Of a stretch of DNA of 64,000 nucleotides, positions 9,724-58,411 are shown one piece after another. Both the position numbers and the translations under genes were made by a program. Within the stretch, counting starts at the first letter, position 1. Each line of letters opens with the position of its first letter. The notes beneath the pieces are model-generated. The model had not been told where the DNA came from and did not search any database. It saw only the letters and a program-made list of their open reading frames with translations. Source of the DNA: Schlesneria sp. (GTDB taxonomy: Bacteria; Planctomycetota; Planctomycetia; Planctomycetales; Planctomycetaceae); the NCBI GenBank assembly GCA_028291515.1, contig JAQGHU010000062.1, positions 1-64,000 on the forward strand, in the 5' to 3' direction.

Positions 9724-11877
9724 TTAAGTCGCCTTAACCACCGGCCGGGGCCGCTGCATCACCAGCACTGTTATGGCTCCAATCGCCAACACGCCGGCAC
9801 CGATTAGCCAGGACGCCGGCAGATGCTCTTGTTCGCCGCTACCGATTCCCCAGGCCTTCAGTTGCTCCGTATAATTCGACACCGTCAGCAACAGGCCGTT
9901 GTGAATGCAGTGCAGCACAATCCCCGGCCAGACGCTGCCGGTTTTCAAACAAACGATTCCCAGGATCAACCCCAGGAAACACGTTGGAGCGAATCGTTCG
10001 AAGAACAGGGCGTCGCGAACGACAACATGGAATAACCCGAACAGAGTGCTCGACAGGATCACTGCCAAGGGACTGGCCATTTCCGCTCGAAAAGTCGTCT
10101 GCAGGAAACCGCGAAAGAACAGTTCTTCGCAAGCCGCGGGAACCAGGGCCAGGGCAATCAATTTCCATGCTAATGGCACGGCATCAATCTGAGCCTTGAT
10201 CGATTCGAACAGTTTGACAAACTCCGTCAGCCGATCGGGCGACTGGACCAGAACCAGTTCATAAGCAAACGGCCATAACGAAAGGCCCAGCACGGCTGCA
10301 GCAATGAACGACAGCGGCGAAGCCGTTCGTAGCGACAATCCTGAATTCCAGGCGATCGCGAAATAGCGAGTCAGCACCAGCGGCAGCACGGCAAACAACA
10401 GAATCGTGATCGCCATGTTGATCGCCAGGCGACTCTCGATCGACAGGTGAGCCAGCCGCGAGGCTGTTCCTCCCAGGATCAGAAACGTGGGAAACAAGAT
10501 CGCCAAAGCGAACATCGCCTGCCCCAACGTCGCCTGCGGACGCGGGATTTCCGGTCGACGAAACAGGTCCGACCAGCTTCCATCACCGCCGTAAAGCACG
10601 GCATCTGTTCCAAAGATCCGGGCGGCAGCCGACAACGCGACCGCGGCATACAGGGCTGTCGACAGCAATGTCGCCAGCGCCCAGATCGGCACCACGCGAT
10701 TGTCGAACACATCGCGAGCCAGTAACACAATGTTCGCCAGCGGCGTGACAGCCAGCCACGTATTGAACTCAATCCCCGGCAACAGACAGATGATGCCAGG
10801 TGCCAGCGAGACCAGCATTAACGGGATCAGATAGGCCTGCGCTTCCTTAAAGCTGCGAGCAAAACTCGTCAGGATCAGGATCACGGCCGAGAAGAACGCC
10901 GCGAACACGAACAGCAGGCTCAGCGTCAGCACAACCAGTCGCAGGGAAAGCCCGCCCGAACCAAACAGCAAACCCTCCAGCCCACTGGCATAGGCGGTCA
11001 CGATCATCGAAACCAGGTTCGCCACCGCGGTCATGACAGCCACGGTCACCACCGCGACGTACTTCGCAAACAGCAATTCGTGACGAGGGACCGGGGATGA
11101 AACCAGGGCCTCCAACGTGCCACGTTCGCGTTCCCCCGCCGTCAAATCGATCGCGGGATAGACCGCTCCGGTGACCGTCATCAGGATCAGGATCAGCGGA
11201 ACCAAAGTCGCCAGCGACAGCGGAGGGCCCGCCTGGTTTCCGACCGGTGTCAGCGATTCGACCCGGATATCGTAAGGGAACGGGATCGCTGGAGTTTCTT
11301 CGGCCAGTGCATGACGAGCGAAATCTTCATTCAAAGCTCGAAATCGATCTTCGATAAATCGTCGCGCGTCACGGCTGACCGGCGATCCTGATCGATAGAT
11401 GATCTCCATCCCCATAATGCGGTTGTCGGGGTGTGACCCAAAGAGCACCGCGATGTCGGCTTCTCCCTCCGCAACCGCTTTGCCTACATCGCCCCCCCCG
11501 TCTTCTTGATCCGGAATCATCAGTTCGATGATCGGATCGTCGATGGTTCCCTGGGGATGCTGTTGCATGTCGACGGTGCGTCCTTCACGCCGGGAAACCA
11601 ACTGGTTACCTAGCGAGAAGAGCTTTCGGAACGTCGGTTCCTCGTGGCGCGATGGCAGTGCGACTCGATATTCGACACGAGTTCGAGTGACCTGCGCCAG
11701 AATCAGCTTCTGCAGAGTGACACCCAACAAGGGATAGATCAGCAACGGCATGGCGACCAGCGTGATGATCGTACGGCGATCACGCAGGATTTCGCGGAGT
11801 TCTTTGACCGTTAACCGCCACCAGCGCGGTGAAGTCCAGCCATGGTGGGAATCTGGCGTGCCGGACTCGTCAGACAT
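9724..11877 (-). CDS. ABC-2 type permease fused to a CPBP intramembrane protease
   Basis: A 717-residue membrane protein with two modules. Residues about 1-420 form an ABC-2/NatB-like exporter permease: N-terminal membrane helix, a large extracytoplasmic loop, and a helix bundle including the signature [30 protein letters not shown]. Residues about 500-690 form a CPBP (Abi/type II CAAX prenyl endopeptidase-like) domain with [16 protein letters not shown] and the later [10 protein letters not shown], where the Glu pair and His residues are expected to bind metal. It overlaps the ATPase gene start side by eight bases (11870-11877), so the two form an exporter. NatAB exports sodium in Bacillus, but the substrate here is unknown. 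Confidence 0.92.
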
Positions 11878-12634
11878 GCGCGGTCTCTCCGAAGGTCGAC
11901 CCGGATTGATTGCCGATCAATTGCAGAAACATTTCAAACAGGTTGCTGCATCCTGTGGCTTGTTGCAGCTCGGCAAACGTTCCCTCGTGCTTCAATCGCC
12001 CTCGATGCAATAGCCCCATGCGGTCGCACACGTGCGAAGCTTCGTCGAGGCGATGAGTCGACACCACAACCGCCTTACCCAGCGATCGCAGTTTCGTGAT
12101 ATATTCGAAGACGACATGAGTCCCGATCACATCTAGGCCGCGCGTCGGTTCATCCAGCAGCATCACCGGGGGGTCGTGCATTAGAGCGCGAGCCAACGTG
12201 ACACGCTGCTTCTGTCCGGTACTCAGCGTCGCACAGCGTTGATCCAGGAATCGGCCGATGTCGAACAGATTGCTCAGTTCTTCCAGTCGGATGCGCGCTG
12301 CTGCAGGGGCGACCCCGTAAAGATCCGCAAAAAACATCAGCGTTTCGCGAGGTGTCAGCCATTGATACAAACCCGAACTGGCCGAGACCAGGCCGATTCG
12401 ACGCTTCACCTCATCCGGTTCCCGGGTCGCTCGAAAACCGTCGACTTCCGCATCGCCACTGGTGGGTGACAGCAGACCAAGAATCATTCTCAGTGTGGTC
12501 GTCTTTCCGGCCCCGTTGGGTCCAAGCAACCCGTAGACTTCACCCGATTGAACTTGAAACGACAGATGGTCCACAGCAACGATGGGCCCGTTGCTGGACC
12601 GGAAATGTCGAGTGATTTCGGAGACAGAGATCAT
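11870..12634 (-). CDS. ABC transporter ATP-binding protein (NatA-like)
   Basis: A 254-residue ATPase that should power the adjacent permease-protease fusion. Visible motifs are Walker [11 protein letters not shown]-loop region [17 protein letters not shown], signature [15 protein letters not shown], Walker [13 protein letters not shown] and the switch His in [11 protein letters not shown]. The ATG at 12634 begins [11 protein letters not shown], the normal first strand; upstream in-frame codons to 13015 would run into the divergent sigma-factor gene and read as non-protein-like sequence, so I reject them. The C-terminal end overlaps the start of the permease gene by eight bases. The gene is divergent from the ECF42 sigma factor, with a 257-bp intergenic gap. 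Confidence 0.94.
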
Positions 12635-50604: not shown

Positions 50605-51885
50605 CTAGGCGGCTTCCGACTCGGCGATGCCGATCTCGCGATTGCGGGAGGTCAGCAAGTGGATGGCCGCGCTCAGGCCGTGCAGGGCCGAATCGAGCTG
50701 GCTGGTTTCGTGCAGGACGCGAAGATTGTTCGAGAGCGAGGACTGCAGTTCGACCAGGCGTCCTTCGCCGCGAGCAATGGCACTCAGCGATTGGAGCAGT
50801 CCGGCGATGTCTTCTCGGAACGCGGCGGCACGTTCGATGACCGCCATCATTTGCGCGTTGCTCTTGTCCTGCTTCAAGTCCATGATCGCGATGACCTGCC
50901 GCAAGCGATCTTCGTGCGTTGACTCATAATTCTGGTGGCTGGCAAACAGGCGTTCGATGACTCCTTCGGCACGAGACGCTTCCTGCAGTTGGCGCTTGTC
51001 GAATCGTTCGAACAGCGTATCGAAACTTTGTGACCACAACTGCACCTGCTGCTGCAGCGTCTGTTCCAACCGAGTCAACGACTCTTGATTTGCCTGGTCG
51101 ATGACAGTCAGGAACGGAAGGATATTCGGATCTTTGATCTCAAAGCGATGCAGCAGCTCGCTATCAACCAGCCGATCGGTCGACGCGACAAAGCTTTGGT
51201 CGACGCGTTCACACAGGAAACTGAGGAACATCATCGTCATGGCGGTGGCCAGGGCAACGCTGGTCGTATTGAAGGCCGTTCCCATGCCGGCGACGATTTC
51301 AGGAAGCTTAGAGGACATGTCATCGAACGAGAAGCTACCGATCGCTCCCCCGAAGTGAACCACGGTTCCCAGGAATCCCAGGATCGGGGTCACCGCGATC
51401 ACGAAGCGGATGACGGTGTACTTGCCGTGAAGTTCTTGATCGGCAAGATCTGCCAGATGACGAATATGCTCGCGATAGTCATCAGCCGAACCCTTGTCGG
51501 CCACAAAACTCAGGGCGTGGACAATCCGCTTTCCGGGGTTCGATGCCAAAAGCCATGGGGGGTTCTGCAAGACGCCGTTCAGCAGTTCGCGCGCTTTGCT
51601 GGCGGGTTCGCGGCCCGTTCGCGGTGGTAACCATTCATGGCGTGCCGCGAGAAGTTCACGCGGAAACGAGAGTAGCTTGAGCGTGACATCGAACATGCCC
51701 CAGAAAAACAGCGTCACGATGACGTATTCCACGGCGTGTTCGGTGGTGTAATGAGCCAGCACAGTTTCCTGCATGGCCGGCTGAAACATGATCACGTAAT
51801 AGACGATGCTGCTGGCGAGTCCCAGCATTAAAGCGGGGTCTGTTTTCAGGAACGAAAGAATCTTGCCGCGCCGCTTCATTCGCAT
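50605..51885 (-). CDS. MotA/TolQ/ExbB proton-channel family protein with long C-terminal tail
   Basis: A 426-residue protein with N-terminal membrane segments (DPALMLGLASSIVYYVIMF, HAVEYVIVTLFFWGMFDVTLKLLSF) and the conserved core VTPILGFLGTVVHFGGAIGSF and VAGMGTAFNTTSVALATAMTMMFLSFLCERVD, which matches the MotA/TolQ/ExbB domain that forms the pentameric proton channel. The final 190 residues are a predicted coiled coil (QESLTRLEQTLQQQVQLWSQSF onward). ExbD, encoded divergently at 52416, is the natural partner. ATG 51885 and ATG 51879 are both near an AAGAGG site. The driven process (uptake, envelope or motility) is unknown. Confidence 0.88.
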   Translation of the reverse strand: MRMKRRGKILSFLKTDPALMLGLASSIVYYVIMFQPAMQETVLAHYTTEHAVEYVIVTLFFWGMFDVTLKLLSFPRELLAARHEWLPPRTGREPASKARELLNGVLQNPPWLLASNPGKRIVHALSFVADKGSADDYREHIRHLADLADQELHGKYTVIRFVIAVTPILGFLGTVVHFGGAIGSFSFDDMSSKLPEIVAGMGTAFNTTSVALATAMTMMFLSFLCERVDQSFVASTDRLVDSELLHRFEIKDPNILPFLTVIDQANQESLTRLEQTLQQQVQLWSQSFDTLFERFDKRQLQEASRAEGVIERLFASHQNYESTHEDRLRQVIAIMDLKQDKSNAQMMAVIERAAAFREDIAGLLQSLSAIARGEGRLVELQSSLSNNLRVLHETSQLDSALHGLSAAIHLLTSRNREIGIAESEAA

Positions 51886-52415: not shown

Positions 52416-52832
52416 ATGCCTCTCAAAATGGCACCGCTGGAAGAGCCAGCCATCAACATGACGTCTTTGCTCGACATCATTCTGTTTCTGGTGATGTTCT
52501 TCATGATCGGGGCTCATTTCTCGGAGAACGAACAGACGACAGATATTCAGATTCCCAGCGCGATGGCGGCTTCGACATTGTCGGGCGCGCCCGATGCGAT
52601 CGTCGTCAACGTTGCCACCGATGGCCAGGTGACCGTGAAGGGTGAGACGAAAACGCTCGAAGGGCTGATGGCGTTACTGACCACGGCACGGACGCAATTC
52701 CCCGGGCAAAGCGTCGTCATCCGAGGTGACGGCCGCTGCCAGTACCAGCAAGTCATGGACGCCTTGTCCATTTGTACCGAGGCGGGAATCCACAACGTCT
52801 CGGTGGCTCATCTGCCACGCAAGCAGAATTAG
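52416..52832 (+). CDS. ExbD/TolR-type biopolymer transport protein
   Basis: A 138-residue protein with a short cytoplasmic N-terminus, one membrane segment (MTSLLDIILFLVMFFMIGAHF) holding the proton-relay Asp in LLDIIL, and a periplasmic domain (VVNVATDGQVTVKGETKTLEGLMALLTTARTQFPGQSVVIRGDGRCQYQQVMDALSICTEAGIHNVSVA). It should form a channel complex with the MotA/TolQ/ExbB-type protein encoded divergently. AAGGA precedes the ATG. The family size is normal. No TonB or TolA gene is adjacent. Confidence 0.92.
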   Translation: MPLKMAPLEEPAINMTSLLDIILFLVMFFMIGAHFSENEQTTDIQIPSAMAASTLSGAPDAIVVNVATDGQVTVKGETKTLEGLMALLTTARTQFPGQSVVIRGDGRCQYQQVMDALSICTEAGIHNVSVAHLPRKQN

Positions 52833-52938: not shown

Positions 52939-54513
52939 CTATGACTTCGGACTGACGTAGCGCCCTATGAACAGGATGTTGGCGGTTTCGCGGTCACGAA
53001 TTAAAAAGACGAACGGCTTGTTCGCTTTGAAGATGGGATTGAAAGGACGAGTCTTCGGTCGATCTGGCGGAGCCTCGGCCGACACACCCATGAGGACAGC
53101 AGTGGCCGCGGCTGCTTCTGTGCCAATTTCACTGACATCGACAAACGTCTTGTGCAGCACGTCAGAGATGTACAGACGATCTTCAGGTCGTCCGGTTGAA
53201 CTCAATTTGTCGAACTGTGCTCCGTGAGGATCCTGCCCTGGATCGACGAAAGCTCGCACCATTCCTAAGGATTGCAGGGTCTTCGTCAACTGGTGTGTTG
53301 ATTCGAGTTTGTACTTTGGAATCGAAAGATCGACGGTGCGGGATTCCAACTGATCGATCCATCGTTGGAGTTTTTCGTACGTCAAAGAGGTCTCAAGCTC
53401 GGCCAGTCCGGCTGCGGATTGCGGCACGAGGAACACCATCTGAATCTTGCCGCCCTGATAGCCCAGTGACAGCATCGTGTGGCCGTCTTTATCGGGGTAG
53501 AGCGATGGGTCGTCGTCTTTGAGATCGATACGAACTTCGTGAGGAGTCGGGAAGAGGTCTCCATTCGCGACGAATGCACCATAGCCGACGGATTCCCTAT
53601 TCCACTGACGCATCATGCTGAGCTTGATCGATTGATCTTCCGATACCTGAAATGATTCTGGACGGGTCTGTGATGGTTCAAAGGGCTTGGCCCAATCCCC
53701 TTTGAAATAGACCGCGTTCGTAATCACCAGCTTCGTTAAGTCGGTAATGCTCTGTGGGGCGAGCAAGTCCTGGATCCGATCGTTCGTCTGCTGAGCGACC
53801 CACTGATTGATCTGTAAGCGCACCGGTTCTGCGCGCTGCTTGAAATCGACAGGAAACAAGACCGCTCCATAGTTTGGCTTCAAGACGGAGAGGAAGCTCG
53901 GTTGAATCGAGTACGTCTTTTCCAGCCAGAGCGCATTCGCAATCTGCAGTTCGTAGGCGGAAGTCCGTTTCAAGAGCGCGTTGAGTTCATCCGCGAGCTT
54001 CTGTCCGGTCGCGGACGATACTTGGGCTTCACGAAATTGTTTTGCTTTTTCGAACGCCTTGGTGCGATCGTTGGCGTCTTTCAATTGAGCCCGCAGGGTG
54101 GTGAGTCGCTTGACGACTTCTGGCGGGACTCGAGGAATCGCCGAGCGTTGTAGCTCGTGTTGTCCCGGATGAATCCTTGCCAAGTCCCCTTTGGCGATGT
54201 GCAACACGTCCGTCATCTGATCGAGTGTCTGATCAACAGCACCCTCGGCGGTCATCGTCAGCGCGAGGGAAACCGAGAACGGCGAGAGGAATATGTTTTT
54301 GCCAGATTCCTCCTCAGCCAGCCGGCGATACAGGTCAATCGCAAAGCGACCATTGGCTTGCGAAGCCGCCAACACATCACCTGGGGCTGCTCTCGATCCC
54401 TGCTCCGGCAGCGGTTGTTCTGCGCCGGCGATCGCAGTCACAGTGAGGCCGATCATGAAAAACAACATGCGGCTGATGTTCAGGGACGATCGAAGATGAG
54501 CGGCGTCATGCAT
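52939..54513 (-). CDS. Secreted serpin (serine protease inhibitor)
   Basis: A 524-residue serpin with an N-terminal signal (LNISRMLFFMIGLTVTAIAGA). Serpin landmarks are NIFLSPFSVSLALTMTAEGA, NAVYFKGDWAKPFEPSQTRPESF, VFLVPQSAAGLAELE and the hinge EIGTEAAAATAVLMG (about 462-476), whose Ala-rich sequence is that of inhibitory serpins. The P1 residue is probably Ser or a neighbouring Val/Met, suggesting an elastase- or chymotrypsin-like target. The chain is longer than usual (about 370-400): an inserted Lys/Glu-rich coiled-coil-like segment (about 130-185) and an extra N-terminal part are visible. AGGAAGG precedes ATG 54513. Confidence 0.93.
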   Translation of the reverse strand: MHDAAHLRSSLNISRMLFFMIGLTVTAIAGAEQPLPEQGSRAAPGDVLAASQANGRFAIDLYRRLAEEESGKNIFLSPFSVSLALTMTAEGAVDQTLDQMTDVLHIAKGDLARIHPGQHELQRSAIPRVPPEVVKRLTTLRAQLKDANDRTKAFEKAKQFREAQVSSATGQKLADELNALLKRTSAYELQIANALWLEKTYSIQPSFLSVLKPNYGAVLFPVDFKQRAEPVRLQINQWVAQQTNDRIQDLLAPQSITDLTKLVITNAVYFKGDWAKPFEPSQTRPESFQVSEDQSIKLSMMRQWNRESVGYGAFVANGDLFPTPHEVRIDLKDDDPSLYPDKDGHTMLSLGYQGGKIQMVFLVPQSAAGLAELETSLTYEKLQRWIDQLESRTVDLSIPKYKLESTHQLTKTLQSLGMVRAFVDPGQDPHGAQFDKLSSTGRPEDRLYISDVLHKTFVDVSEIGTEAAAATAVLMGVSAEAPPDRPKTRPFNPIFKANKPFVFLIRDRETANILFIGRYVSPKS

Positions 54514-54825
54514 AATGCGATGCCTTCCTGAATGCAGTCTTGTTGAAGTCACATACTCTTACAGCAATGGAAGCGCGGATGTGTTCAGACGGGAAATGGA
54601 CCAGCGGATTGTAGCAAATCCTTGATGCGGATGAACTTTTAGCGTCGCTTCGACCGCCCGTTGAAATGGCCCACGGCTCGATTGGCCCTCGAGGGCGAAG
54701 GGGCGCTAAGCTGGAGAAAATAGGCTCACAAATGAAGTCTTGTCAATTTTCATGAAAGGTTTTATATCGCGGCGAGTATCCCCATTAGGGATCTGATATT
54801 CGAGGTTGAATGAAAGGAAAGCGTG
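54514..54825. other. Intergenic region upstream of a small membrane-protein gene
   Basis: A 312-bp gap between the divergent serpin gene and the small gene at 54826. It includes an AT-rich segment (54721-54790), likely promoter DNA. No supported gene or repeat copy is visible. Confidence 0.45.
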
Positions 54826-55008: not shown

Positions 55009-55225
55009 TACCGCTTGGGCGCGGCTTGATGGGCGCAGGGTGTAGCCCGCGACGACGATCAACGGGAGGATCTTTGACTCGGGCGGCTCAACAATGAGGT
55101 GCGGCCGGAAGCTTTCCTGGTGGACAACATCCTCTTGACGGCTTTTTTTCAGTGGCGTATATGCAAAGCCGTGCGGACGGGCGCGTCCGTTCTCTGATAG
55201 GGATGATCCTGGTGGGAGCGAATTG

Positions 55226-55858
55226 ATGAGCGACACCATCCTTAAGCCGAAAGCGTCAGAGACGCAACGAGAGATCTTGATCGTGGCGGCGGACGTGTTC
55301 GCCGCCGAAGGGTTCCGGAACACGGATGTGCAGGTGATTGCGGATCGCGCCGGAGTTGGTAAAGGGACTGTTTATCGCCACTTCGGGAACAAGGAGCAGT
55401 TGTTTCTGGCGACTGCTCAGTATTGCATGGGGCGACTCGAAGAGCATGTGACGGAACAGCTTGAGGGTTATCCAACAGCAGAGGCGTATCTGGAGGCCCA
55501 TGGGGCGGCCGATGTGCTACGTCTGATCGCCCGCGCCTGTGCTCAGTTCTATCAGCAGAATCCTCTGTATCTTGAAATCCTGATCCAGGAACGGGTCGAG
55601 TTTCGAGAGGCGAACGATCCACTGCAGGTATTGATGCGCAAGAACACGCGGGCAGGTTTGGACAAGCTTATGGAAACTGCCATCAAGAGCGGGGATTTGC
55701 GCAAGGGGAAAGTCAAATCCGCGTCCGATGCCTTTGGCGACCTGCTGTATGGAAGCCTGGTCCAGGGGAGTGTCGACGGAGACAGTCAGAGGTTGGTTCA
55801 GCGAGTCGAGCAATCTGTTGAACTACTTCTCAATGGACTTCTCGCCAGTCCAAGTTGA
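55226..55858 (+). CDS. TetR/AcrR-family transcriptional regulator
   Basis: A 210-residue repressor-type protein. The N-terminal helix-turn-helix is clear: TQREILIVAADVFAAEGFRNTDVQVIADRAGVGKGTVYRHFGNKEQLF. The C-terminal ligand-binding part is helical, with an unusual RLIARACAQFYQQNPLYLEILIQERVEF segment known from envelope-linked TetR proteins. It lies 73 bp before the patatin-like gene on the same strand and probably controls the operon, including itself. The ATG at 55226 is preceded by GGTGGGAGCG; a TTG at 55223 is an alternative. Confidence 0.93.
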   Translation: MSDTILKPKASETQREILIVAADVFAAEGFRNTDVQVIADRAGVGKGTVYRHFGNKEQLFLATAQYCMGRLEEHVTEQLEGYPTAEAYLEAHGAADVLRLIARACAQFYQQNPLYLEILIQERVEFREANDPLQVLMRKNTRAGLDKLMETAIKSGDLRKGKVKSASDAFGDLLYGSLVQGSVDGDSQRLVQRVEQSVELLLNGLLASPS

Positions 55859-55931
55859 AGAATGCGATGCCAGGGAAGGACTCCTCTCGGCCCGCGTGAG
55901 AAGCCGTTGCTTTCGAGAAAAGGAATTCTCG

Positions 55932-57176
55932 ATGTCTCGTTTCATCGTTCTGATGTTGGTCTCTACCGCGACGATCTGTCTGCCGGTGGGGTGCCAATCC
56001 ATTCGCCAATATCCGCCCGTTCCTGCGAACCTGCAATCGGTCGAAAGAGGCCGCGCTCAAGATTCGAACGGCGATTCCATTCGTCACGTTGATCATGAAG
56101 ATTGGAATAGCGAGGAGCGAGCACGACCGCCGGAGAACATTCTGGTTCTGTCCGGAGGTGGGATCAATGGAGCCTTTTCTGCCGGAATGCTCGTCGGTTG
56201 GACGCAATCAGGCAATCGTCCCGAATTCGATATTGTGACCGGGGTCAGCACGGGGGCTCTGATCGCTCCGTTGGCGTTTCTCGGGACTGACTATGACGAA
56301 GAACTGAAACGGCTATACACGTCCGAGAGCGCCACTCGCATCTACAAGATACTCCCGCTGTTTCTCTGGTCCAACGCGGTGGCGAGTTCCAAGCCGCTCG
56401 ACACGCAGATCCGCAGTGTGGTGACACAGGATCTGCTCGATCGCATTGCTCAGGAACATCGTCATGGTCGACGGCTTTATATTGGCACTACGAACCTGGA
56501 TACGCAGCGGCCCGTGGTCTGGGACATCGGTGCCATCGCGGCAGGCCATGCTCCTGGCAAGGTGAAATTGGTGCAGGATGTCATTCTCGCATCGTGCTCC
56601 GTTCCCGGTTTGCTTCCGCCCATTGAGATCAACGTTGAGATTAACGGCAAGCGATACTCCGAGTTGCATGTCGACGGAGGCGTGGGCGCGTCGATGTTTC
56701 TGCCGCCACAATCGCTCAAGCCACCGTCTCTAAGCAGCTTCACACACCTTGGTACGACCAGCGAAAGGATGAGACAGACAACTGTGTACACGATTGTGGC
56801 CGGGAAGGCGGATCCCGATCCGGTGCCCGTCAAGCAAGGGTTGCTGCAGTTGTCCGGGGCCTCGTTATCGGGAGTGCTGCGTGCTCAGCAAGAGCATGAC
56901 CTGATCCGGATCTATCTGTTGACTTACTTTGCCAACGCCCGCTTTCAATTGGCGGCGATCCCCCAGGAATATGCGGCTCCAGCAAGTTCACTTGAGTTCG
57001 ATTTGAAGACCATGCGGGCGCTGTTTGACGAAGGCCAGCGGCTGGGGAGTTCGTCGGCTGTCTGGACCGATACGCCTCCTGGAATCGATCCGCAGAGCTG
57101 GACTAACCCCCGGACGGGTACACGGCTGGGTTCCCATTCTCTCTCTTCCTCCGCTGTGTCGGGAGATCGACCATGA
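55932..57176 (+). CDS. Patatin-like phospholipase, lipoprotein form
   Basis: A 414-residue lipid hydrolase candidate with a lipoprotein signal (MSRFIVLMLVSTATICLPVGC, Cys21). Patatin motifs are complete: oxyanion loop LSGGGINGAFSAG (73-85), nucleophile GVSTG with Ser106, and the catalytic Asp in DGG (248-250). A spacer of about 45 residues links the anchor to the domain. AAAAGGAAT precedes ATG 55932; a longer frame from 55728 overlaps the TetR gene and is rejected. Its stop overlaps the start of the next gene by four bases. Membrane lipids at the envelope are the probable substrate; activity is inferred. Confidence 0.92.
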   Translation: MSRFIVLMLVSTATICLPVGCQSIRQYPPVPANLQSVERGRAQDSNGDSIRHVDHEDWNSEERARPPENILVLSGGGINGAFSAGMLVGWTQSGNRPEFDIVTGVSTGALIAPLAFLGTDYDEELKRLYTSESATRIYKILPLFLWSNAVASSKPLDTQIRSVVTQDLLDRIAQEHRHGRRLYIGTTNLDTQRPVVWDIGAIAAGHAPGKVKLVQDVILASCSVPGLLPPIEINVEINGKRYSELHVDGGVGASMFLPPQSLKPPSLSSFTHLGTTSERMRQTTVYTIVAGKADPDPVPVKQGLLQLSGASLSGVLRAQQEHDLIRIYLLTYFANARFQLAAIPQEYAAPASSLEFDLKTMRALFDEGQRLGSSSAVWTDTPPGIDPQSWTNPRTGTRLGSHSLSSSAVSGDRP

Positions 57177-58411
57177 TTCAATCGGTTGAGCTAGAAACGA
57201 ACGCCGTCCATCGCAACAAGACTCATCATCAGTCGTCATTGGACGAGACGTTCGAAGGACCGGACGAGCTGGCGGCGAAGCTTCGGCCGTACTTCGATCC
57301 CGCTGTCGCCGGCATTGACGACCTCTCGCGACTGATCAAGCTGCTATATCACGCCAGCCTGATTCCAGAGGAAGGGCGCTATCCCCGCTTCCGAGTGATT
57401 TGTGGCCGCGAATCCTTTGGGCATACGGTCGAATTCGATGTTCCCTGGCCGAGCATGAATTCGGTAGAAGCCATTCGTCGCCTGGTTCCGGCCATTTCCG
57501 ATCCGAATACGGCGGTCAGAATTGTGGGAGATGCCCAGCGCGGCTTTAGCGCGTTTCAGATTCTCGATTTTCGAGAGCATTCGGCCCAAGGCAATGTCGA
57601 GGCGATTTCCGAAGTCTCCTTGCCGGAAGGAACACTGACGGTGCGAGTGGACGGGCCTGGAGAACTGCGTGCCACCATCCAGCCGGGCCCCGTGTTTCAT
57701 CTGCGGGGAAACAGAATCCGAGAATTGATCGCCTTTGACAAAGCGGTCCTGCCGTTTCGGACACTGGTCAGACAGCTCTGCGAGGAGTTTGAGGGGCCGC
57801 TGCTGGCGCTCACCGGCCAGCAAGCTTTGTCGGCGGACTTGCTGGTGGATGGCTTCCTGTACGTCTGGGCGACGATGATGGCGGATGTCATTAACTCGCC
57901 GCATGGCGGTGCTTTCCTGATCGTGCCGCATCGCGAGTGCTCTTGTGTGGAGCCGAGATTTCTGGCGAAAGGCAATCTCTTTCACGCCTTCAAGTCAACG
58001 ATCATGACGCTGGCTCGGCGTGCGGGCGAGAACTTCTCGGAAGGCCGCAAGCAATGGTTGCTTCAACGAGAACACCTGCTGCGAGTGGCGCGGATGTACG
58101 GAAAGCTGTCCGCCACAGATGGTGCGGTCCTGTTCGACAGCGAACTGAGTTTGTGCGGCTTCGGTGCGAAAATTGTCGTGACAGCGCCGAAGTTGTCGCT
58201 TCACGACGCGATCACGGGTCGACAGCTCGATGAGGGAGGCGGTGGAGGAATGCGACACAGCTCGGCCGCGGAACTTGTCCGCGCGGTTCCCGGGGCCATC
58301 GCCTTCGTGATCTCGCAGGACGGGGATTTGTCCGCATTCTACAGCGATAACACGCGCGCCTATCGACTGCCGCATCTTGACGCTTGGGGAACGGTCTCGG
58401 ATTTCCTCTAA
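57173..58411 (+). CDS. Sensor-like protein with DisA/DAC-type C-terminal domain (DACNV-like)
   Basis: A 412-residue soluble protein. The C-terminal part (about 300-400) resembles the diadenylate cyclase (DAC) fold: DGAVLFDSELSLCGFGAKIV (DGA 316-318) and GGGGMRHSSAAELVRAVPGAIAFVISQDGDLSAF (RHSSA 361-365, where active DACs have RHRTA). The N-terminal part (about 35-290) includes RGNRIRELIAFDKAVLP and HGGAFLIVP, consistent with the predicted DACNV sensor group, of which I recall only the domain name. It overlaps the patatin gene by four bases, so both are made together. Either c-di-AMP-like synthesis or nucleotide binding is possible; the altered RHSSA makes binding without catalysis plausible. 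Confidence 0.7.
   Translation: MIQSVELETNAVHRNKTHHQSSLDETFEGPDELAAKLRPYFDPAVAGIDDLSRLIKLLYHASLIPEEGRYPRFRVICGRESFGHTVEFDVPWPSMNSVEAIRRLVPAISDPNTAVRIVGDAQRGFSAFQILDFREHSAQGNVEAISEVSLPEGTLTVRVDGPGELRATIQPGPVFHLRGNRIRELIAFDKAVLPFRTLVRQLCEEFEGPLLALTGQQALSADLLVDGFLYVWATMMADVINSPHGGAFLIVPHRECSCVEPRFLAKGNLFHAFKSTIMTLARRAGENFSEGRKQWLLQREHLLRVARMYGKLSATDGAVLFDSELSLCGFGAKIVVTAPKLSLHDAITGRQLDEGGGGGMRHSSAAELVRAVPGAIAFVISQDGDLSAFYSDNTRAYRLPHLDAWGTVSDFL

Follow-up and report, generated by a model that had tools for sequence, protein, structure and literature searches.

Within a 64,000-nucleotide stretch of Schlesneria sp. DNA (contig JAQGHU010000062.1; the whole stretch is called the window here), three genes on the + strand encode a TetR-family regulator, a patatin-like phospholipase and a protein with a diadenylate cyclase (DAC) fold. 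The best reading of this operon is that it is a variant of the patatin-DAC pairing that is related to, yet distinct from, the anti-phage system DS-2. We tentatively favor the view that it is a self-contained, horizontally mobile accessory operon, in which induction through TetR would give two parallel outputs, the DAC protein and an envelope patatin, in an envelope-stress or defense-like response. A check of the open reading frames left the gene positions of an initial annotation in place, including the 4-base stop/start overlap of the last two genes. The regulator (210 residues, 55226..55858) scores 60.1 bits against TetR_N (PF00440, cut-off 24), in line with its earlier assignment; it starts at ATG, with an alternative TTG 3 nt further 5'. 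After a gap of 73 nt follows the patatin (414 residues, 55932..57176; PF01734, 80.8 bits, cut-off 27.7), which belongs to a lipoprotein-type family with a signal-peptide cysteine and contains GGGINGA; the catalytic dyad previously described as intact is present in its sequence as GVSTG and DGG. Its reading frame stays open upstream as far as an ATG at 55728, inside tetR, and the start was set at 55932 because a signal peptide results from it. The third protein (412 residues, 57173..58411; DACNV model PF21751, 34.0 bits, cut-off 27) consists of two domains, DACNV and DAC, which refines its first description as a soluble protein with a DisA-like C-terminal domain.

The upstream region supports the earlier view of the three genes as a TetR-controlled unit. 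A putative TetR operator, the palindrome CGGACGGGCGCGTCCG with 6-bp arms and a 4-bp center (55174..55189, +), ends 36 nt upstream of the tetR start codon, and the exact 16-mer also precedes tetR in the congener G096. In a genome-wide pattern search, no other site with one mismatch or fewer turned up in the window genome or in G096, while the reversed control pattern gave 1 match in the former and 3 in the latter. In Singulisphaera sp. GP187 a single match, with one mismatch, lies at another place in the genome, and a Planctomyces metagenome-assembled genome (MAG) has none. Because an identical 16-bp palindrome stands 5' of tetR in two genomes, and is the sole match in each, the operon looks TetR-autorepressed, and autorepression of solely this operon through the putative operator is the natural reading. 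A putative sigma70-like promoter, TTGACG-17 nt-TATATG (55135..55163, +), sits 5' of the palindrome, with TTGACG-17-TACAAA in the same place in G096; the window site was not listed by an automatic promoter scan because its -10 element lacks T at position 6. The G096 tetR that adjoins the DAC gene is 66% identical to that of the window. Farther TetR relatives in G062 (39%) and G520 (33%) have outer-membrane efflux (OEP) and HlyD genes as neighbors, and that of G520 also an AcrB-type gene.

The junction of the last two genes is the second conserved element. The ATG of the DAC gene and the TGA of the patatin gene overlap as ATGA, and a stretch comprising the patatin 3' end, the ribosome-binding site of the DAC gene and this overlap (57154..57176, +) follows the pattern TGTCGGG-(A/G)-ATC...ATGA, common to GP187 and G096, from which translational coupling of patatin and DAC is inferred. 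In GP187 (DAC 85% identical), a lipoprotein-type patatin lies upstream that is 41% identical to the window patatin and falls outside its clade (support 86/97, below the star threshold of the tool), in a tree whose inner support is modest and whose bootstrap is unsettled. Between this gene and the DAC gene lies a duplicated, frameshifted remnant of a window-type patatin 3' end, which leads into the DAC start through an identical ATGA. No shuffle matched this tail (0/5000 both with and without the ribosome-site part), and the corresponding peptide tests gave 1/10000 and 7/10000. Since the remnant runs into the DAC gene with ATGA, the patatin-DAC coupling appears to predate the window strain and to have been lost at least once. 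There is weak support for a patatin tail in G096 as well (2/5000 shuffles when the ribosome-site part is included and 287/5000 when it is not; peptide tests 8/10000 and 325/10000), and no clear tail was found in the Planctomyces MAG (232/5000 and 122/5000 shuffles). Relatives share both the putative operator and the ATGA overlap, and no other PF01734 match besides the patatin occurs in the window genome (E 0.001); the locus is therefore likely to be more than a chance arrangement.

The DAC gene itself is sporadic and probably transferred. Of 15 genus genomes, two carry its close subfamily (E 1e-20); of 150 family genomes, 23 carry relatives at E 1e-5 and three a relative above 70% identity (the window genome is one of the two and one of the three). 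In a phylum sample of 392 genomes, 24 contain PF21751. Outside the window genome, the family set yielded 25 DAC matches, 20 of which were read with wide flanks, the others being those in G038, G118, G087 and G128 and one of three in G093. Identity to the window DAC is 79% in G096, 85% in GP187 and 72% in the Planctomyces MAG, and that of PhoH (Pfam PhoH, 290 bits), taken as a marker, is 76%, 50% and 51%, respectively. Because DAC identity to GP187 is far above that of PhoH, the pattern is most simply explained if the DAC region was transferred from one lineage to another. The gene order varies as well: in G096, tetR stands directly 5' of DAC with 84 nt between them and no patatin, and the 8-kb contig of the Planctomyces MAG contains neither tetR nor patatin. 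Patatin and DAC are thus not a constant pair even among the closest relatives, and the co-occurrence of tetR that was to be checked is seen in G096 but not in the GP187 stretch, where no TetR match was found, or in the Planctomyces contig.

The C-terminal domain (residues 193-412, 57749..58408, +) scores only 12.0 bits against the Pfam DAC model PF02457 (cut-off 27), and its assignment comes from structure prediction. With an AlphaFold2 model of the full-length protein (14 sequences, pLDDT 77.8, pTM 0.79), the best 50 Foldseek matches listed were DAC-domain structures only (best E 2.8e-4, probability 1.00). VIA-align of residues 193-407 against DisA, CdaA, DacM and related structures gave Z values of 9.9-11.9 over 129-141 residues, the best match having Z 11.9 and a root-mean-square deviation of 2.8 over 140 aligned residues; unrelated rows had Z values of at most 3.0. 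A profile of 19 relatives found 18 Protein Data Bank (PDB) sequences at E ≤10 (best E 0.0018, most >0.01), of which 17 are named diadenylate cyclase, CdaA, DisA or DAC-domain, and the remaining one, 2fb5, hypothetical membrane protein. The predicted model thus confirms a DAC fold at the C-terminus, and the DisA-like domain first proposed has held, though below the Pfam threshold. DGA and RHR are given as active-site motifs of CdaA in PMC10243994. In the window domain, DGA is present (DG at residues 316-317) and RHR is replaced by RHS (RH at 361-362). Alignment of 48 loci, window included, shows G.RH in every one; the following residue is R at 33 loci, Q at 10, K and L at 2 each, and S in the window alone; the three nearest orthologues have R. 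Without the last residue of RHR, the domain may have reduced cyclase activity, and its production of cyclic di-AMP (c-di-AMP) is a prediction only. The window genome also encodes a second DAC protein, of PTS_EIIA_2, DacZ_P and DAC domains, with the DAC domain above cut-off (L116:4988-6349, G000:C112), and has a PgpH-type match. These two make c-di-AMP turnover plausible, and the genome probably supports c-di-AMP metabolism.

A search for the patatin and DACNV-DAC genes as neighbors, which the initial annotation had suggested, covered 47 distinct DACNV-DAC loci besides the window, after exclusion of seven repeat records; some of the stretches end at contig ends. In three of them, namely in GP187, in Herpetosiphon giganteus and on a plasmid of Hymenobacter monticola, the gene immediately 5' of DACNV-DAC encodes a patatin and runs in the same direction. 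Chance would place about 0.17 patatins anywhere within the 560 kb of the 47 loci, so that the Poisson probability is 0.0007 for at least three and 0.013 for at least two, from a rough density estimated on five genomes, of which two carry the pair, and with GP187 not independent of the window; at three and five times this density, the probability of at least three is 0.015 and 0.056. In Herpetosiphon giganteus DSM 589 (L146:680-3930), the patatin lies 38 nt 5' of DACNV-DAC and passes the DS2_1 model (507.6 bits, cut-off 400), and a CD-NTase-like gene adjoins on the opposite strand (SMODS 24.8 of 26.5 bits, DS2_2 80.4 of 350, PADLOC cyclase 106.9), with an integrase fragment beside these genes; no TetR was found in the 4.9-kb contig. 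On the Hymenobacter plasmid (L150:5683-9209), the patatin directly 5' of DACNV-DAC is fused to an Omp85-type domain, which makes an envelope location probable for this protein as well. The window DAC as query found no relative on plasmids, whereas the Herpetosiphon DAC found two Hymenobacter records, one with the adjoining patatin and the other with a DACNV gene in split pieces and no patatin. Viral contigs gave no confirmed relative, and phages gave no match with the Herpetosiphon DAC, the one query used there. Other partners were also seen: in two loci (L039:5818-8774 and L044:5813-8812), DACNV-DAC is followed by a co-directional protein of about 550 residues with cyclic nucleotide (cNMP)-binding and pyridine nucleotide-disulphide oxidoreductase domains, and in three (L029:7986-14000, L034:7257-14000 and L037:7391-13999) it lies 5' of a giant protein, which in L029 has glycoamylase and GH94 domains.

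Based on these results, a mechanism may be outlined in which TetR would leave its operator upon binding an amphiphile or a product of membrane damage, as the RND-efflux (resistance-nodulation-division) genes beside its distant relatives suggest. The soluble DAC protein would then be made and would raise cytoplasmic c-di-AMP or, given RHS, might weakly make or sense it, and the patatin would deacylate envelope phospholipids. The two outputs would run in parallel through co-expression, with no direct gating of the lipase by a nucleotide. It is improbable that a cytoplasmic dinucleotide gates the lipase in this way, because the enzyme, with its exported, lipidation-type N-terminus, is predicted to lie across the membrane. 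The likely trigger would be an attack on the envelope or membrane, possibly by phage or a competitor. All functional steps of this scheme are inferred. Counting for it are the palindrome unique in two genomes, the ATGA overlap with the GP187 tail, the transfer and sporadic presence of the genes, the DAC fold, the c-di-AMP turnover genes, the efflux-adjoining TetR relatives and the 5' patatins of the survey.

Several observations weigh against the favored reading. The third RHR residue is lost in the window copy; 44 of the 47 other DACNV-DAC stretches, some clipped by contig ends, contain no patatin; the patatin is missing from the G096 operon, and DAC orthologues persist without it. The G+C content of the operon (0.54-0.60) equals that of its flanks, with no compositional trace of recent import, and the case for transfer is built on PhoH as a single marker gene. 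Finally, the lipobox of the window patatin reads L-P-V-G-C and is non-canonical, since the textbook rule permits only certain residues at position -3 and Pro is not among them. The lipobox claimed initially thus breaks this rule, but G-C at the lipobox site after a hydrophobic stretch is found in 18 of 18 full-length lipoprotein-type homologues (17 plus G048), and an exported, lipoprotein-type N-terminus is predicted for the window patatin family.

A further reading concerns the N-terminal DACNV domain (residues 27-192, 57251..57748, +; model pLDDT 80.4), which may be a degenerate DAC fold and which Pfam labels 'probable sensor domain DACNV' (PF21751). When the domain was modeled alone, the first 11 VIA-align entries were all DAC structures (Z 5.9-7.5 over 113-126 residues; next entry Z 2.9), at values below 8, which according to the tool may reflect a mere common arrangement and are usual for models without a clear match. 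Foldseek with the domain alone gave no significant match (best E 0.59), a profile search of solved structures found no DAC, and hhalign gave no link between the N- and C-terminal domains (probability 0.3%). The likeness, which comes from VIA-align and one predicted model, is therefore a lead short of demonstration. A likeness of residues 147-208 (window 57611-57796) to the Lon N-domain (phmmer E 0.0023) was not reproduced with profiles. If DACNV is a degenerate DAC, the DACNV-DAC protein would be an internal pseudo-dimer, and the annotation as a probable sensor would take on another meaning. It is possible, though doubtful, that DACNV is no separate sensor fold and that DACNV-DAC is a built-in asymmetric DAC dimer with one catalytic and one dead half. 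On this reading, several lineages would have joined such a cyclase, as a mobile membrane-attack response, to patatins that face the envelope in planctomycetes and Hymenobacter and are cytoplasmic and of DS-2 type in Herpetosiphon.

Less probable than the favored reading is that tetR and DAC form the functional unit and that the lipoprotein patatin, a gene usually located at other sites, is a chance insertion in the process of loss. Patatin matches occur in 22 of 150 family genomes (the window genome and three weak ones counted), and none of the 18 patatin stretches outside the window locus (L098-L115) contains a phmmer match to the window DAC protein. In G096, the patatin is 1.08 Mb distant from tetR-DAC, and the window-type patatin has decayed in GP187. 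Against chance insertion stand the tight ATGA coupling, the adjacency in Herpetosiphon and Hymenobacter, and the finding that another lipoprotein-type patatin, from outside the window clade, lies 5' of the GP187 DAC gene.

A defense function was weighed in the light of DS-2. The DefensePredictor report (PMC13092281) describes DS-2 as a validated anti-phage system of a phospholipase, a cGAS and a DAC protein, states that no DAC had previously been validated in phage defense, places 15 of 30 homologues of the DS-2 DAC with a CBASS (cyclic oligonucleotide-based anti-phage signaling system), and cites Galperin 2023 for this association. The link between lipase and nucleotide that the initial annotation regarded as undescribed therefore has a precedent that it missed. 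In a CBASS- or DS-2-like module, the DACNV-DAC protein would make a dinucleotide on infection and activate the patatin, so that the membrane is destroyed and the infection aborted. The same report finds DS-2 defense lost on mutation of the predicted catalytic DAC residues; the Herpetosiphon locus combines a DS2_1 patatin with DACNV-DAC beside a CD-NTase-like gene and an integrase fragment, and the window module looks mobile. These points are opposed by the export-type N-terminus of the window patatin, by a putative TetR operator that suggests ligand induction and by the RHS motif. In addition, the patatin reaches 42.2 of 200 bits with the CBASS_lipase model NF041079 and 30.6 of 400 with the DS2_1 model NF053870, and no SMODS match was found in the window genome at E 0.1, with one model only, which also scores below cut-off for the Herpetosiphon enzyme. 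The patatin is matched by phospholipase-effector models of PADLOC (best E 1e-19, 69.0 bits), but these are generic for patatins and also pick up those of GP187 and Hymenobacter. A direct anti-phage role of this kind is thus unlikely. Membership of CBASS is rejected on the lipase score and the lack of a match to the one SMODS model used, and that of DS-2 on the DS2_1 score and the absence of any NCBIfam match to the DAC protein up to E 1 (NF053872), in agreement with the first impression that this is not a known defense system.

The operon is flanked by genes for a serpin (52939-54552, divergent from tetR; PF00079, 342 bits), a sulfatase and an alkaline phosphatase. Six neighboring proteins were scanned with PADLOC: five had no match, and one, a MotA/ExbB/TolQ-type protein (50605-51885), gave a weak ZorA match (31.9 bits); a small open reading frame near it (52416-52832) had none. 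No CD-NTase was found among the scanned neighbors. Apart from ZorA, these genes are not defense-like, and the defense-island clustering that was to be checked is not seen at the window locus. Elsewhere in the window, a tRNA-Trp is predicted at 11784-11881 (98 nt, longer than usual).

Least probable, and quite unlikely, is that the DAC-like protein has no catalytic activity and serves as a nucleotide sensor or scaffold in a lipid-remodeling unit that answers the c-di-AMP of the other DAC, since the RHS found in the window alone, the sub-cut-off PF02457 score and the second DAC above cut-off are set against DG and RH invariant across the aligned family, other third residues at 14 of 48 loci (Q 10, K 2, L 2) and RHR in the three nearest orthologues.

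A TetR-inducible, mobile patatin and DACNV-DAC operon would, if true, extend DAC-phospholipase partnerships to the cell envelope; similar gene pairs occur in other phyla, and the window operon offers a regulator and an operator that can be tested. A literature search that covered few subscription journals found nothing for 'DACNV', for patatin with lipoprotein and diadenylate, or for CBASS with 'DAC domain'; c-di-AMP and patatin occur together in six of the papers covered. Among known systems, CBASS with CapV shares a patatin phospholipase and a nucleotide-cyclase-type partner; the window lipase differs in its low CBASS_lipase score, in its export-type N-terminus, which agrees with the earlier placement of this lipase outside the cytoplasm and apart from CapV, and in the missing SMODS match. 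Other DACNV-DAC proteins have the same two-domain architecture, and the window protein passes their DACNV model; it stands apart through its low-scoring DAC domain, the RHS motif and its operon with tetR and patatin. The Herpetosiphon locus may be described as DS-2-like, with DACNV-DAC in place of the DACNG-DACNH protein of DS-2. It resembles the window in the patatin directly 5' of DACNV-DAC and differs in its DS2_1 equivalog, which has neither a lipobox G-C site nor an export-type N-terminus, in the adjoining CD-NTase-like gene and in the lack of TetR in its contig. Five DS-2-type plasmid loci were also compared: two (L164 and L167) have a neighbor annotated as DS2_3 or DAC or scoring as DS2_3, and in the other three no such neighbor is annotated, the one large neighbor tested (L166) being without DAC. 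In two plasmid DS-2 loci, the DACNG-DACNH protein passes NF053872, and one of these two proteins also passes the Pfam DAC model. DS-2 and the window locus both pair a phospholipase gene with one of DAC type. In DS-2 these come with a CD-NTase, and the DS2_3 protein is built of DACNG and DACNH domains (NF053872), whereas the window locus, where no CD-NTase was found among the scanned neighbors, combines TetR, a DACNV-DAC protein and a lipoprotein-type patatin.

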